Shown here one piece after another: positions 3,046 through 52,693 of a stretch of DNA of 64,000 nt. A model generated the notes under the pieces. That model made no database searches. It saw only the letters and a program-made list of their open reading frames with translations, and had not been told where the DNA came from. The stretch's first letter is position 1, and each line of letters begins with the position of its first letter. The DNA is from Isoetes taiwanensis (Eukaryota > Streptophyta > Lycopodiopsida > Isoetales > Isoetaceae), in the NCBI GenBank assembly GCA_021234155.1, contig JAJEKV010000070.1, positions 5,649,311-5,713,310 on the forward strand, given 5' to 3'. Made by a program: the position numbers and the translations under genes.

Positions 3046-4780
3046 AAAGAGAAGATATGCTGTAATTCGACATTAACAAAGTTTTATAGATCTCTCCAAT
3101 TAGATGAAAGAGGTGATTCATATCCTTGTTCAATTTGGTTAGTAGCAAAATTTAAGTCTCGTACAAAAAGTTGTCATACCTGAGAATGTGAGGCACAATT
3201 TAGGAACTGTGCATGTCAATAAAAACAAGCCTAAACCCACAGAATTAGGGAAACACGGCTATTGGATCTCCAACTTTGCAACCATGTCCTTTATGAAGTT
3301 AAAGGACCAAACCTACCAGTCCAACAAAATTATATTTTATAAATAGAATCCGAGAGTTCTTATCATTGCTGGGTGGATTATAGACAACCTCATATGGCAA
3401 TGATCATGTTTCAATGTTGAATCCTGGAAAAAACACAGATTTAAGGTCATAGCTAATAGATAAATCATGACACTTGTGTTTAAAGAATACATAAATGTTA
3501 TCCTCAGATGAAGCTATTCAAGAGGAGCTCAGACTTTCCTACACAAATGCATTGCAGGCAAATAATTTTGAATCTAGAAAAATGAGCTAAAATGTAGGAC
3601 ACATGCAAGAATACAAACTGGAAATCGTTGTTTTTATATCTTATTCTAACTGATCTGAGCTGCAAGAAAAAAGGGGAAGGATGTGTGCCATACCACATTA
3701 CAATATTCTTCCGTTGTGTTGCATGAGTGGCAAAGAACCATCTGTTTTTATGAGTCCATATGCCCGGGGCATTCTCGCTCCAAATATACCATGCGTTTTG
3801 TGAATCCATATGCCCTGACCATTGCTTGCTCCAAACATGAATTGATATTTTTCTTGGGAAAGATGTGGAAAAACGGTAAAAGATAGAATATGATGGAAAT
3901 ATATCGCTGATTTGTAGAGCGGTTATGGGTTATCCGCTCCGTTGCTTCTCATAATTAGGGTTGAAGATTCAAAATATCTCGTTGCCAAGCTCCCAATTCA
4001 AAATATCCCGAAGGGGAAGAGGGAACACTGCATGCGACATTCCTGACATAAATATCAACACCATTCGTTTTTAAAAAAGAAGATTTAAGTACGAAGAACA
4101 ACTGTTAGCATGCCAAGGCCATATCATCCATAAATCTCTGACATTAAAAGCTGAAATTATGATCTCAAACTTTTAGCAAAGGTGTTCCTTAATTTCATGC
4201 AATGCAATGCACAATATTGCGATATATGCAATTTCATCTTTGCTCATCCTAAGTATTTCCTCACCGACATCACAAGCAGCTGTGCTGTACATACAAAGCA
4301 AAGTGAACCCGTGGCCAAACTACAAGCTACCCCACGTATTACGTCGTTATTTAAAGCAACTACTAGCAAGATACAAATTAAGCTCTCATAGGGTCGGTAA
4401 CGGTATCGAAGAGGCGGGTGAATACCATCGGAAGAAAGGTTATGTCAATTCACCGCTGCATGAAGTGGATAAACCATGTTTATCAGGTAACCATTCAATT
4501 AAATTGGGTTTATGTCTTAATCTTTTGGGACAAATTTCATATTGCATGTTTTTAGTAGCATATTCAAATTCACACATTTCACCTCAAAAATTATGAAAAC
4601 GCATTATCATGTTATTTACAAAAATAGTCAATATTTCACAATATAGCACCATATCATAAAACGTGATAACAAAAAATTTACATAGTTATTCAACTTTCTT
4701 CAAGCACCCCCAATGATATCATAGCCTTCTTCCCCTCACATCCCAGGTATTGTAATTCTCGCATTTTTAGTCGAATAGTG
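3046..4780. other. Intergenic, no gene recognised
   Basis: The sequence is AT-rich with short ORFs only. A near-duplicate pair around GAATCCATATGCCC lies at about 3750-3845. The overlapping frames of 129 and 69 codons at 4182-4596 start from the same AT-rich stretch, lack any motif and are probably fortuitous. Confidence 0.4.
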
Positions 4781-43729: not shown

Positions 43730-45323
43730 TCCAATACGGCTATGGGAGCTCTACAAGAACAGCCTAACAGAAGATTACCAACGATAGATGCCACAAGAGC
43801 AAGCTTATAACAACGCATTGAGGGATATTGACGACATCTTCCAGATGAGCGGCTGCACATGCCAACAACTTGGCCTACTAGAACTACGGCTAGATATTCT
43901 AGGCAACTTCCCAAATGAACTGAACATTGATGCAGAAAAGGAATTGAAAGAAGAGCAGGAAAACTATGGCAAGCTCAATAGGGAACATAAGCACATAGCT
44001 GACATTATGCTCGATGCAATCAGCCAGCATCAAGCCCCATGTATCAATGTGGACGGCCCAGGAGGTACATGCAAGACGTTCCTCTTCAACAGTCTGATTA
44101 GTATACTAAGAGGATGCGGTGTTGGCATCGTATCAGTAGCTTGGATAGGTATTGACAGCCTCCTCTTGAAGGGAGCATAAGAGGCAACCTCCTCACTATA
44201 TGTACAATAAGCCAACAAGCGGAGGTACTCAGAAAGGCAAGCATCATGGTTTGGGACGAAATGGAGATGACACACACGCAGGCACTAACTGCCATCGACA
44301 GGCTTTTATGTGAGATACGCCAGGATGACAGGTTGTTTGGGGGAATGATGATGCTCACTGGCGGCGATTTTCAACAGCAGTTGCTTGTGGTCAAGCGTGC
44401 AACAAGGACGGAAGCCATCTCGAAGTGTGTTAAGAGAAACCCGTTGTGGACTAACTTCAAGACCCACAAGCTGACACAAAATATGCAGGTCGGAAGAGAC
44501 GAGAAAACCTTCTCAAATTGGCTGCTACGTCTCGGTAATGGGGAACGGATGCGACTCCGACTTGGTTGAGATACCCGAAGAATGCGTTGTGGAAGATGAC
44601 TTGATCTATCGCACCTTCGGCAAGGAAATAACAGAAGCAAATGTGCACCTGTTGCATGACAAAGCCATCTTAACACCAAAGAATGAAGACATGCTAAAGA
44701 TCAACAATAAGGTCCTCCTAAGGTTATGCGGGCAACTCCATATATATACGAGCATAGACGCCATCATTGTAAAAGGTGAAGATGCTACAAGAGACTTCCC
44801 AATTGAGTCCATCAACTACCTGACCCCTTCTGGCATGCCACTGGATAAGCTGCACATACGGTGCCATCGTCATCCTACTCAGAAAGATGAACGTGAAGTC
44901 CGGTTTCTGCAACCCGCCTCCACGTAATAAAAGCACATCCAAGAATCATAGATGACAGAGATAATCACAGGCACCTACAATGGAACACGGGTTCTCATAC
45001 CAAGGATAACCCTGGAGCCATCAGACAACGACCTCCTCCCCTTCAAGCGAAGGCAGTTTCCCGTATGACTTGCATTCTCGATGACCATAAACAAGACACA
45101 AGGCCAGTAAATGACCTCCGTTGGCATCTACCTACCAACGCCAGTTTTTGCCCATGGCCAGCTCTATGTCGCATTCTCAAGGTGCACCACACAACAAGGA
45201 GTGAAGGTATACATTCAAGACACCTCAAGACAAAGAGCTCTGCTCAAAAACAATAGGAGGTTCATTCCAAATGTAGTCTACAAAGAAATCCTATGGGATG
45301 AAATAGCCCCTGAGTTCTTATAG
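43730..45323 (+). pseudogene. Helitron PIF1-like helicase (right part of the RepHel pseudogene)
   Basis: After RLWELYKNSLTEDYQR and a stop come the helicase landmarks in order: QAYNNALRDID, VDGPGGTCKTFLFNSL (Walker A with Cys in place of the second Gly), SIMVWDEMEMTH (Walker B), MLTGGDFQQQLLVV, LTQNMQV, then in a new frame DLIYRTFG, ILTPKNEDMLKINN, YLTPSGMPLDKL and finally PVFAHGQLYVAFSRC (motif VI) and ILWDEIAPEFL. This is the SF1B helicase that unwinds DNA during Helitron rolling-circle transposition. At least three frameshifts and several stops, plus the damaged Walker A, make it inactive. The 3' hairpin and CTRR end were not located. Confidence 0.85.
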
Positions 45324-45447
45324 CCCCTATTTTGGAAGAAGGCCGGTAGGAGAGGTAAGAGAGTGGTTGAGCCTGTGCTTCCATCTATAAGCTCCTTGCA
45401 AATTGGAAGTTGTTCTTCTGGAGGGCCTTAGATTGGAGGTTCTTCTG

Positions 45448-46251
45448 ATGGTTTCTTCTTTGGGGCAAGGCTGGACAGCCATCGATGTTAGTGTGACATT
45501 GGGGCTGTCTGGGCAAGATGTTCCCACGAGTTTTTATGATGCCATAGTTGGGTTTTGTAATAGGAGATGTTTGGCTGGAGTAGTGGCATTGGGGCATGGT
45601 GCTATGCTTGATCATTTGCATTGTCAGGTCGTGCTTAGAGCCCATTACAAGACTCCAAGGGCCATGAATGATGCTATTAAGAAAGATTTCAATTGGCCTT
45701 CAAAGCCTCCAGGCGTTGTTTTGGTTTGTATGGCTCTAAAGAATAATCGTCTTCATTACTTTGAGTATGATTGGTTATTGTATGAAATATTTTGGAAAAT
45801 TCATTATGTATGCCATTTCCATAACATCAGCGAAACCATAATTGAAAAAGGAAAGGATTTATATTTAAGGTGGGGGGCTGATGACACCAAAAATATTGTT
45901 GTTTTAGATAATAAGAATCTGTTGAATAGAGCGGCTTACTTTGGGAACTGTCATGGTAATCGAAGGTTGACTGCTAATTTGGCATATACCTTGTGCAGGA
46001 TGATTAGATCTGGAAAACTCACGTTGTCTAGTTCGTGGATCATTCCTTCTAATACTGCTCATATTAATGAGCATAGAATTAGAGCGGCTTTGAGGGTCTT
46101 GTTGAATCCTAGTCATTGCATGCCTTCTGATATGAGGACTATACTATATGTGTTGCCTACAAGGTTTGTGCCTATTGAACAAAATGGTCCGAAGTTTGTA
46201 AGTCCATTGCAGCAAAATCTTGCCTCAACCTTGATCTTGCATGACCCTTGA
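45448..46251 (+). CDS. HUH endonuclease-like Rep, Replitron-type candidate
   Basis: This is an uninterrupted 267-codon frame, the longest open frame in the window. The frame is open from 45391, and 45448 is its first ATG. Residues 56-58 are H-L-H followed by C-Q, preceded by a hydrophobic strand and G-H-G: an HUH metal-binding site as in rolling-circle Rep nucleases. About 54 residues later Y112 (LLYEIFWKI) could be the nicking tyrosine, but the usual Y-x-x-K is Y-x4-K here. The rest (DLYLRWGADDTKN, LTANLAYTLCRMIRSGKL, SSWIIPSNTAHINEHRIRAA, LRVLLNP) resembles a family of Rep-like proteins I remember from algae and non-seed plants, associated with Replitrons. No helicase motifs are present. 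It starts 125 bp after the Helitron helicase stop and could be an independent insertion or a passenger. Confidence 0.6.
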   Translation: MVSSLGQGWTAIDVSVTLGLSGQDVPTSFYDAIVGFCNRRCLAGVVALGHGAMLDHLHCQVVLRAHYKTPRAMNDAIKKDFNWPSKPPGVVLVCMALKNNRLHYFEYDWLLYEIFWKIHYVCHFHNISETIIEKGKDLYLRWGADDTKNIVVLDNKNLLNRAAYFGNCHGNRRLTANLAYTLCRMIRSGKLTLSSSWIIPSNTAHINEHRIRAALRVLLNPSHCMPSDMRTILYVLPTRFVPIEQNGPKFVSPLQQNLASTLILHDP

Positions 46252-46679: not shown

Positions 46680-47795
46680 AATTAAAAGATGGATTGAGGT
46701 ACCATGAGACATGACCATAGATTTAGGAAAAGACGGAAATATCTTTTGTCACAGGGACATATAGGCATTAAACATAGAGCCGTATATAGTGAAGATGCAA
46801 AATGACTTAGCATGTATCTGCATCTCAAATTTTTGAAGCATGCTTTGAAAGGGCCAAAGCAAGCCACATCCAATGGTTGCAGCATATGTCATGTGTGTGG
46901 AGATAACTTCAGAATATGTAAACCCATCTCTTTATCATGTTGAATGGCTTTCAAAGAGATGTGTGAACCATAGCCATCACATATTAATACATTTAGCCTA
47001 AAGTGCACCAACTATCAAACAACTCATCAGTTATCCAGACCTTCTTTTGGTAGGACATAGCAGCACCAGGCTCACAACCAGCCATTAGATTTCTATATCT
47101 AAGTCTCTTACATTTAAAAACATATAAATTTGGAATTATAGGACCTGCTGCATTGGAACAATAAGCCATTCCCTATCCTTAGGAATGGTTTGATTCATGT
47201 TACCCTACCCCCTTCTAGCCACAACTCTTACACCAGATCTACTTCCAGCCTAGATTTTCATTTCATCACAATTCCATATAGTATTAGCTTGAAAATGAAA
47301 ATTAGTATATAAAGTTTCAAGAGAAGAGAAGAAAGCATTCGGATTAGTAGAAGTCATAGCTTTACCTTTTGAACCTCCACACAGTTGATCTCAAAGATAT
47401 TTAGGGTATCTAGCTTTAAAATTCCTCCACCATTTTTTTCCCAGGCAAACCATCTTTAAAATATGTATCTCTACTAATACATATTTTTGTTACCCTCTCT
47501 CTCAATAATTCTAGTGTCACTCCTCTACCTTCATCAACCATTTGCAGGCACCATTTCACTAAAGTTTCCTCTTCTTCAACTGTCAAACCCATAGCTTTGA
47601 TCCTAATTTCACCTCAATTATCCCACCTAGCCATCTTCTAAGAGTGCTTTTGGATATGGCATAATGTGGAGTAGCTTTACCAATGCTTAACAAACCATCC
47701 TTAATTGCTTCTATGGCTTCATGCATTTGCTCCAAGAGCCCCTGACCATGGATCTTACCCTCTTTTCTCCCAAGGAATTCTTCTGTAACTAGGAA
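46680..47795 (-). pseudogene. Pogo-like (CENP-B/Tigger type) transposase relic
   Basis: The N-terminus near 47790-47640 reads GQGLLEQMHEAIEAIKDGLL, then GKATPHYAISKSTLRRWLGG, a CENP-B-like helix-turn-helix. EEETLVKWCLQMVDEGRGVT follows near 47580. The DDE core comes next: IWNCDEMKI near 47285 (first Asp), ICDGYGSHISLKAI near 46975 (second), and LSPHT..MLQPLDVACFGPFKACFK near 46870 (third Asp in L-Q-P-L-D, about 35 residues after the second). Four or more stops and frame changes occur across the core. The protein would bind and excise its own element; this copy cannot. Terminal repeats were not identified. Confidence 0.8.
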
Positions 47796-48150
47796 TATAT
47801 TGTGGCGGAATTGGATTTGGACTTGCTTCTATGGGCTTTAGGATGACCAAAAATTGGTTCTGGTTCTATGGATGAAATTGGTTCTGGTTCTGCTTTTGAA
47901 ACTTTCTTTGCATCACTTGCAAACCACGACATGCAACCAAACTGCTGAGCTCCCAAAAACTGCTTCAACAGTAAAAAGCCACTGCCTTTGTAACCACAGA
48001 ATCGCTAGAAGACATGATCAGCGCATTTTTGAACTCAAGATTTAGCAAGCAAACTGGAGCGGCTAAGAATCAAAAGCAAACCGCCAAAGCAACAACCTAA
48101 GCGCCATCGCCGAAGAAAAACAGAGCAAAAAATGCTCCCCAATTTCTATA

Positions 48151-48390: not shown

Positions 48391-49645
48391 CCGGCATGTT
48401 TCTGGCAGGGGGTCCCCCCTCTACGACACTGCAAAATGGTTTGCAACTCCAGAACGTATCAGGAAATCAAAACCGAACACCTTTTGGTTGCAAGGGCGTG
48501 GTTTTTCATGTGATATGTCAGTTTTTCGCCAATAAAAAGAGGATGAATTGCTTGATATTTTTCTACGTCTGTTTTATTTTGAAATTTTTGAAATGGCAGC
48601 AACTGCCATTCCAGAATGGTTGAAAACCTTGGTGCAGCTGCATTACGAGCCAGGTGGTGGGGAGAAGAGGAATTGGTTTTGCATGCAATGCAATGTGCCT
48701 GAATTGATGAGTGAGAGGGAGTTGACGGCTGGTGGCCACTATAAACATTTCCGTGTCAAATTTTGGAGACATTCCAAAGAAGAAGACTGTGTTTACTGCA
48801 GTGAGTTGAAGGCATTTCCTATTCCTTTTCCTCAGATCGAGTATGTGGACAAGAAATTAATGCAGGGTGACTTGGTTTACTATGTCCATACAAGAATCGG
48901 ACGAAAAAAGATCAAAACCAATTTATCCAGATGCGCTACATGTGGTTTTTTGTGCCCAGATAACATCTACTGCAGTTTGGAATGTCTAGTAGCAGCAGGG
49001 GGGGCTGTGCCACAAACCAGATCACAGCAGCATTTAATGCAGAGTTTGGAATGTCTAGTAGCAGCAGAGAGCGCACAAGCTGAAGGACAGACTGCAGCAC
49101 TGGAAGAAGCAAATGAGCAGGAATCCCAATCCTAAATAAAAGAGGAACCATTACTTTTCTGCTCTATTTTAATTTACGCTATGTTTTTCCTTGCTTTTAT
49201 TGTAGCAGAAGTGCAGTTTTTTAAATTTATCTGTTCTCTTATTACACTGGTTTATCTCTGCCAATTTATATGTGCGTTTTGTTTTTCCATTTTGGGTTAT
49301 GGGTTTTTACTGGATACCTGGAATACATTCAACGAACTGATTCTGATTTGATGATGCATATAACTGGTTTGATTTGATGGATTTTGATGCACATCACTGG
49401 TCTGATTGTGCTCTGATGCTTCTGAAAAAATACAAGAGTCTAGATTTCCTATATTATCTCATTTTCTTCTCTGCAACACAGTCTGGTGCTTCTGAAAAGA
49501 CACAACACAAGAGTTTGGATTCCTAAAATGTCTCATTTTCTTCTCTATAATGTGATAGAACGATTCTTTATTTGTTTTTGTTCTTTGTTCTTGTCTGTAA
49601 TGTCTGTCAGAACTATTTTACCAAAAAAGAACATTGGAATGAGAG
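48391..49645 (+). repeat. Segmental duplication, unit 1 (carries PLATZ-like gene 1)
   Basis: This unit matches 51470-52693 from CATGTTTCTGGCA to AACATTGGAATGAGAG, including about 200 bp upstream of the ATG (CTACGACACTGCAAAATGGT) and about 500 bp of 3' flank. The 3' flank has its own repeat of about 70 bp (GCTTCTGAAAA...CTCATTTTCTTCTCT), which occurs twice in each unit. Confidence 0.85.
48593..49135 (+). CDS. PLATZ-type zinc-binding protein, copy 1
   Basis: This is a 180-residue single-exon frame. IPEWLKTLVQ at residues 6-15 matches the P-x-W-L-x-x-L start of PLATZ domains. Zinc ligands follow: C-x2-C (FCMQC, about residue 31), His in GGHYKHF (about 50), C-x2-C (CVYC, about 66), then a strand region FPIPFPQIEYVDKK and the closing CATCGFLCPD..YCSLEC (about 113-130). 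PLATZ proteins are plant-specific, DNA-binding regulators of A/T-rich promoters; most have introns, this copy has none. I chose ATG 48593 because similarity to copy 2 in coding phase starts there. The tail repeats SLECLVAA, then ends in an Ala/Glu/Gln-rich stretch. Confidence 0.72.
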   Translation: MAATAIPEWLKTLVQLHYEPGGGEKRNWFCMQCNVPELMSERELTAGGHYKHFRVKFWRHSKEEDCVYCSELKAFPIPFPQIEYVDKKLMQGDLVYYVHTRIGRKKIKTNLSRCATCGFLCPDNIYCSLECLVAAGGAVPQTRSQQHLMQSLECLVAAESAQAEGQTAALEEANEQESQS

Positions 49646-51469: not shown

Positions 51470-52693
51470 TGTTTCTGGCAGCTTGTCCCCCAGACTCTCC
51501 CCTACGACACTGCAAAATGGTTTGCAACTCCAGAACGTATCAGGAAATCAAAACCAAACACCTTTTGGTTGCAAGAGCGTGGTTTTTCATGTGATATGTC
51601 AGTTTTTTCCCAATAAAAAGAGGATGAAATGCTTGATTCTTCTACTTCTGTTTTATTTTGAAATTTTTGAAATGGCAACTGCCATTCCAGAATGGTTGAA
51701 AACCTTGGTGCAGCTGCGTTACGAGCCAGTTGGTGGGGAGAGGAGGAATTGGTTTTGCATGCAATGCAATGTGCCGGAATTGATGAGCGAGAGAGAGGTG
51801 ACGGCTGGTGGGCACTATAAACATTTCCGTGTCAAATTTTGGAGGCAAACCAGAGAAGAAGACTGTGTTCATTGCAGTGAGTTGAAGGCATTTCCTATTC
51901 CTTTTCCTCAGATCGAGTACGTGGACAAGAGAACAATGAAGGGTCACTTGGTTTACTTTGTCCATACAAGAATCGGAGGAAAAAAGACCAAAACTGATTT
52001 AAACAGATGCGCTACGTGTGGTTTTTTGTGCCCAGATAACATTTACTGCAGTTTGGAATGTCTAGTAGCAGCAGGGGGGGCTGTGCCAGAAGCCAGAGCA
52101 CAGCAGAATTTAATTCAGAGTTTGGAATGTCTAGTAGCAGCAGAGGGCGCACAAGCTGAAGAACAGACTGCAGCACCGGAAGAAGCAAATGAACAGGAAG
52201 CCCAATCCTAAATAAAAGAGGAACCATTACTTTTCTGCTGTATTTTGATTTCCATTACTCTCTGTTTTTCCTTGATTTTATTGTAGCAAAAGTGCAGTTT
52301 TTGTGGAATTTATGTGTTCCGTTCTCTTATCACACTGCTTTATCTCTGCCGATTTATATATGCATTTTGTTTTTCCATTTGGAGTATGGTTTATTTTATC
52401 AATTTTAAAGTATGGGTTTTTACTGGATACCTGGAATACATTCACTGGTCTGATTGTGCTCTGGTGCTTCTGAAAAAATACAAGAGTTTAGATTTCCTAT
52501 ATTATCTCATTTTCTTCTCTGGAACACAGTCTGGTGCTTCTGAAAAGACACAACACAAGAGTTTGGATTCCTATAATGTCTCATTTTCTTCTCTATAATG
52601 TGATAAGAACGATTCTTTACTTGTTTTTGTTCTTTGTTCTTGTCTGTAATGTCTGTCAGAACTATTTTACCAAAAAGAACATTGGAATGAGAG
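51470..52693 (+). repeat. Segmental duplication, unit 2 (carries PLATZ-like gene 2)
   Basis: This is the counterpart of 48391-49645 in direct orientation, about 3.08 kb downstream. It lacks a segment of about 65 bp from the 3' flank (the GATGCATATAACTGG part) and carries several small indels outside the coding frame. Confidence 0.85.
51672..52211 (+). CDS. PLATZ-type zinc-binding protein, copy 2
   Basis: 179 residues, about 85% identical to copy 1 by eye, with one Ala fewer at the start and no frame-breaking indel. All Cys and His residues of the zinc sites are kept (FCMQC, GGHYKHF, CVHC, CATCGFLC, YCSLEC), and replacements are largely conservative. The C-terminal SLECLVAA duplication is also present, so it predates the segmental duplication. 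The frame is open for a further 63 codons upstream of the ATG, but the shared in-phase start at 51672 fits both copies. Intact frames in two diverged copies suggest that both are, or recently were, functional. Confidence 0.72.
   Translation: MATAIPEWLKTLVQLRYEPVGGERRNWFCMQCNVPELMSEREVTAGGHYKHFRVKFWRQTREEDCVHCSELKAFPIPFPQIEYVDKRTMKGHLVYFVHTRIGGKKTKTDLNRCATCGFLCPDNIYCSLECLVAAGGAVPEARAQQNLIQSLECLVAAEGAQAEEQTAAPEEANEQEAQS

Follow-up and report, generated by a model that had tools for sequence, protein, structure and literature searches.

The open reading frame and its surroundings

The Isoetes taiwanensis DNA analyzed here, referred to as the window, is 64,000 nucleotides long and contains eight open reading frames of at least 150 amino acids. 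The longest of them, listed as 282 amino acids from a TTG at 45403, lies in the stop-free stretch that ends at 46251 (Table 1), and it comprises 267 codons when counted from the ATG at 45448, in agreement with the initial annotation. The H-L-H motif that had been recognized in it is also present, encoded from 45613. Around the putative nicking motif, the literal translation of the frame is Y-E-I-F-W-K. In working copies of a Replitron, a metal ion would be bound by the H-L-H, and one DNA strand would be nicked by the tyrosine of a Y-C-M-K-D motif, which would stay covalently attached to it.

We compared the frame with the Pfam profiles up to an E value of 10. The sole match was PF21859 (Replitron_HUH), with an E value of 1.8e-4 and a score of 22.3 bits that stays below the curated gathering cut-off of 28.5. 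This match is confined to positions 1-66 of the 128 positions of the profile: the half of the frame bearing the H-L-H is recognized, whereas the half bearing the tyrosine is not. A phmmer search of the window protein against solved structures gave only one match, to an OTU-domain protein, with an E value of 0.85, and a single-sequence AlphaFold2 model reached a mean pLDDT of 40.4, which is too poor for a fold search.

Table 1. Features of the locus, in window coordinates.
Feature	Position	Strand	Basis or detail
Decayed PIF1-helicase repeat, a separate repeat family adjoining the Replitron remnant upstream	43730-45323	+	PF05970 (PIF1), E 8.1e-11 for 43788-44177
Decayed coding remnant of a Replitron Rep (HUH endonuclease), truncated in 5' and 3'	45330-46190	+	DNA matches to L011-L016; PF21859, E 1.8e-4
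Reported open frame, partly out of the ancestral frame	45391-46251	+	286 codons plus stop
TAG in the ancestral N-terminal frame	45429-45431	+	Alignment with relatives
H-L-H motif codons, in the frame of the ORF	45613-45621	+	HLH in 28 of 33 copies
31 nt out of the ancestral frame, source of the apparent Y-x4-K	45765-45795	+	Alignment with relatives
Ancestral Y-C-M-K codons (TAT TGT ATG AAA), present in another frame	45776-45787	+	Y-C-M-K-D in 30 of 33 copies

Downstream of these features, the segment 46200-46809, directly 3' of the remnant, has a single counterpart elsewhere in the genome (designated G000), at G000:C512:221566-222206, with 78% identity. The segment 46702-48100 closely resembles G000:C1092:57335-58732 (97% identity), and part of it, within 46810-47784, matches 25 other places with identities of 65-68%. 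A frame on the reverse strand at 47416-47592 gives a sub-threshold match to the HTH of Tc5 transposases. Two similar frames for cysteine-rich proteins are found on the forward strand, at 48548-49135 and 51483-52211; their best Pfam match, far below the cut-off (E 0.29 and 0.37), is PLATZ, and by eye they resemble PLATZ proteins.

A Replitron family in the genome

We searched the Isoetes taiwanensis genome (1,658,258,908 bases in 1110 contigs) with the protein encoded by the window frame. At least 137 rows matched, the query itself included (136 of 4029 candidates scored), and the 136 non-self rows display identities of 61-77% with a best E value of 8.2e-126, far beyond what chance would produce. 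In nearly all rows the first 20 or so and the last 20 or so residues of the frame fall outside the match, the best non-self row covering residues 23-268 of 286. A search of the same genome with the PF21859 profile yielded at least 150 matches, and all 150 of those listed, from 2165 candidates, score above the cut-off; no PF21859 match was found in 14 control genomes. The four relatives tested all match the profile from position 1 or 8 to position 127, with 71.5-79.2 bits. The Replitron-type HUH domain is thus found in the family, the window copy alone being sub-threshold. Together with the identities of 61-77%, the family matches to PF21859 bear out the link to Replitrons proposed in the initial annotation, and they support the view that the window frame descends from the HUH Rep of a Replitron in a land plant.

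Among 33 copies that were read, 30 carry Y-C-M-K-D and 28 carry HLH, frequencies that do not describe a random sample since the copies were chosen from two match lists. Those labeled L001-L010 and L021-L036 were picked from the 137 protein rows and are mostly high-scoring, with open frames, while L011-L016 and L020 are rows 2-7 and row 12, respectively, of the 41 rows of a DNA search, rows 8-11 having been left out. Four PF21859 matches (G000 C1056:19694288, C1031:150398, C919:6177037 and C1078:19254559) lie in unusually long frames of 516-568 codons, which perhaps hold an extra region.

Pairs of copies with different flanks set the span of the element at about 2.4-2.7 kb (230-2648 in L024, 232-2669 in L035 and 3075-5784 in L010). 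The 5' ends begin with ATAATG, exactly in 13 of the 21 printed and with one base different in the other eight. At the 3' side, ATAAT(A/G)CAC is found in 15 of the 22 ends printed and the boundary is ragged. ATAAT therefore stands at both ends of the element as a short direct repeat. Five 3' ends were folded as DNA, giving z-scores of -1.95 to -3.00 in four of them and 0.14 in L023. All five have a hairpin of the GGCATATG type, located some 40-56 nt upstream of the 3' end, and three of them display the same ten-pair stem, which is weak evidence since the copies are related.

Replitrons are reportedly the subject of a 2023 PNAS article by Craig. The word "replitron" has no occurrence in the main text of PMC10541799. 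In a review, section 3.1.7 attributes to Replitrons direct terminal repeats of 5-11 bp without terminal inverted repeats, and it counts lycophytes among the groups already reported to carry them; a length of 900 bp to 4 kb and a target-site duplication of 2-8 bp are also given there (PMC10741241). The genomic family resembles Replitrons by its HUH domain as detected by the profile, by H-L-H and Y-x2-K motifs that the majority of the examined copies possess, by the 2.4-2.7 kb of its elements with their putative short direct terminal repeat, and by its host, a seedless plant. The window copy differs in being a fragment of about 0.86 kb, apparently dead and truncated, and the family differs in that no target-site duplication could be demonstrated in 14 copies. 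At most four of these agreed over 3 bp at any single offset pair, compared with four to six in 200 mismatched pairings, in a test where the 3' ends are ragged and the mismatched control covers exact 3-bp matches only. A first count had given at most six of the 14 copies with a match of three bases or more at one offset pair, and the offsets of these matches fall inside the element, at the ATAAT repeat.

Some pairs of copies are 96% identical over their whole length. The differences at codon positions 1, 2 and 3 lean to the third position in L024/L035 (8, 1 and 16) and in L028/L031 (9, 6 and 17); no such lean is seen in L021/L033 (47, 39 and 48), for which decay or a slip of the alignment frame are possible causes. 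At least 150 copies were scored in the genome, with candidates that number in the thousands. One could imagine from these copies, from the near-identical pairs, the ATAAT repeats and the hairpin, that the genome, as opposed to the window copy, harbors a recent Replitron expansion ranking among the larger ones. Its elements would perhaps insert without a target-site duplication, none having been detected, in contrast to the Replitrons of the review. We regard this idea as conceivable and rather doubtful.

The junction with the PIF1-helicase repeat

Helitrons combine a PIF1 helicase with an HUH Rep. The window remnant shares with them the HUH class, and it is adjoined by a PIF1-helicase repeat that is presumed to be a Helitron and for which 29 of 42 non-self genomic rows extend over nearly the full length. 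One could propose a composite element that carries both a Helitron-type helicase and a Replitron Rep and moves as one unit, all the more as the homology of the helicase ends at 45323, about its stop codon, and that of the Rep begins at 45330, about its start codon. This proposal is highly unlikely in view of the sequences found at other helicase repeats. Using a 181-base probe spanning the junction, we found that the 39 non-self rows all match the helicase side only, ending at query bases 81-84 (40 of 273 candidates scored). Moreover, three helicase repeats (L017-L019) continue, past the point that matches 45323, into a sequence common to them but not to the window. As these three run on differently and the probe rows all stop on the helicase side, the junction looks like a one-off, for which an illegitimate joining or a deletion is inferred as the cause. 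A Rep and a PIF1 helicase belonging to one element, as in Helitrons, were consequently not found, this junction being unique among the 40 scored matches, and PF21859, the only profile matched by the Rep frame, also sets the remnant apart from Helitrons.

Frameshifts, truncation and the fate of the window copy

We aligned the window copy with seven relatives (L011-L016 and L020) and two other copies. L011-L016 are the six nearest copies by DNA score; their matches to the window copy, with 80-86% identity, start at 45330-45331, and five of the six reach 46189-46190, that of L016 ending at 45981. Compared with its relatives, the window copy has lost 2 nt after 45764 and 1 nt after 45795. These two deletions flank the Y-C-M-K codons and put them out of frame, hence the apparent Y-x4-K; a different frame of this region still reads M-I-G-Y-C-M-K. 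The initial annotation was right about the literal spacing, which is indeed unusual, but the divergent nicking motif that it saw there appears to have been made by the two deletions, and Y-x2-K is not in frame in the window copy. That the 31 nt between the deletions contain no stop would easily come about by chance.

One may wonder whether the window copy could be an intact, divergent HUH transposon endowed with a new Y-x4-K nicking motif. Its open frame, its H-L-H and the literal Y-x4-K would fit such an element. However, both deletions are absent from all seven aligned relatives, L013 lacking 1 nt at another site, a few alignment columns off. In addition, when the first deletion was looked for genome-wide as a string of 27 bases including its surroundings, with up to 3 mismatches allowed, the window locus alone was retrieved, in a search that more diverged forms could escape; the reversed control gave no match. 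No ends of an element were found around the window copy and its ancestral frame has no start codon, so that we give this possibility almost no credit. A divergent or new type of element, as had been suggested, is likewise not upheld, the Y-x4-K being traced to two deletions of which the first occurs in its context at this locus only. We also considered a lineage of variants sharing Y-x4-K, which was rejected because neither deletion is found in the seven relatives aligned and the first one is unique, at up to 3 mismatches, in the genome search. On the basis of these alignments, Y-x4-K is best read as the scar of a double frameshift and not as a new enzyme.

The rest of the copy is no better preserved, and it does not deserve the term "intact" that had been applied to its frame. 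The relatives begin with an ATG followed by a basic N-terminus; in the window copy this ATG is lost, and the ancestral N-terminal frame contains a TAG (Table 1) as well as a 1-nt insertion at about 45452. At the other extremity, homology ends at 46190, which a visual count on the protein sequences places roughly 55 codons short of the C-terminus of the family. The nearest copies cease to match the window copy at 45330 and 46190, whereas the match between L011 and L012 extends about 350 bases beyond both of these points. This continued similarity indicates that the window copy is truncated, and it is better evidence than scans for end motifs. In the latter, the 5' end motif of the family (up to 3 mismatches) was found at five scattered sites of the window, of which that at 47797, downstream of the copy, is the closest, and the 3' end motif (up to 5 mismatches) at no site in the window; these motifs come from other copies of the family and may not fit the nearest subfamily. 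It had been anticipated that genome copies would have common ends around this ORF: copies of related ORFs do share ends, but none were found around the window copy itself.

The nearest subfamily is itself decayed, six of its seven copies (all but L011) having frame-shifting indels relative to L004. In L011, positions 3253-3630 and 3648-4039 contain the 5' region of this subfamily as a tandem duplicate of about 77% identity, as deduced from cross-matches with L020. Two pairs of loci, L011 with L020 (separated by about 37 kb) and L012 with L014 (by about 30 kb), show 93-94% identity across some 8.8 kb, Replitron remnant included, and look like segmental duplications from these alignments.

Finally, we examined private substitutions, that is, changes found in one copy at columns where all the others agree (Table 2). 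The 19 private changes of the window copy show no excess at the third codon position, and the seven relatives pooled behave in the same way. In contrast, a third-position excess is observed in nine copies without stops in the match and in a second set of eight copies, three of which are common to the first. The share of third-position changes in the window copy, 4 of 19, compares with 54 of 128 in the first intact set (p 0.13) and with 59 of 113 in the second (p 0.013). With just 19 private changes, this test is weak alone and provides supporting evidence only.

Table 2. Private changes by codon position.
Copies	Position 1	Position 2	Position 3	p
Window copy	6 of 179	9 of 171	4 of 89	1.0 (Fisher)
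Seven relatives, pooled	36 of 1191	31 of 1125	17 of 574	0.89
Nine copies without stops in the match	39 of 2568	35 of 2600	54 of 2027	7e-4
Second set, eight copies	28 of 2340	26 of 2434	59 of 1819	3e-8

That a Rep-derived protein has been domesticated by the host, for example as a DNA-binding repressor without nicking, could be suggested by a frame open amid decay and by the retained H-L-H region, but seems hardly credible given the loss of the start and of the C-terminus, the decayed repeats that surround it and the private changes without third-position bias, the latter being, with only 19 changes, the weakest of the three rejection tests.

Altogether, we are confident that the window copy is an old, dead and truncated fragment of a Replitron, a kind of eukaryotic transposon endowed with an HUH-type Rep. 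In working Replitron copies, going by what is generally known of HUH enzymes, the nick made by the tyrosine would move a single-stranded copy. The window copy would hardly be able to nick or to move, with its start codon, its flanking element sequence and its C-terminus gone, and with two deletions, which jointly restore the frame, enclosing a catalytic tyrosine codon that is no longer in frame. On the other hand, a dead copy would not have to keep 282 codons open, as this one does, and two frame-restoring deletions could be read as a sign of selection for an open frame. We propose that the long open frame would simply be a leftover of formerly coding sequence.

Since Y-x4-K is best read as a scar, there is no new nicking chemistry to claim from the window copy. 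The locus illustrates how, in plant DNA rich in repeats, an extended open frame may outlast a pair of frame-restoring deletions. The window copy is an ordinary dead member of a known transposon family, in a host group already reported, in the section of the review cited above, to carry Replitrons (PMC10741241). The wider Replitron family of this genome, for its part, offers suitable material for work on the cutting and joining of Replitron ends.
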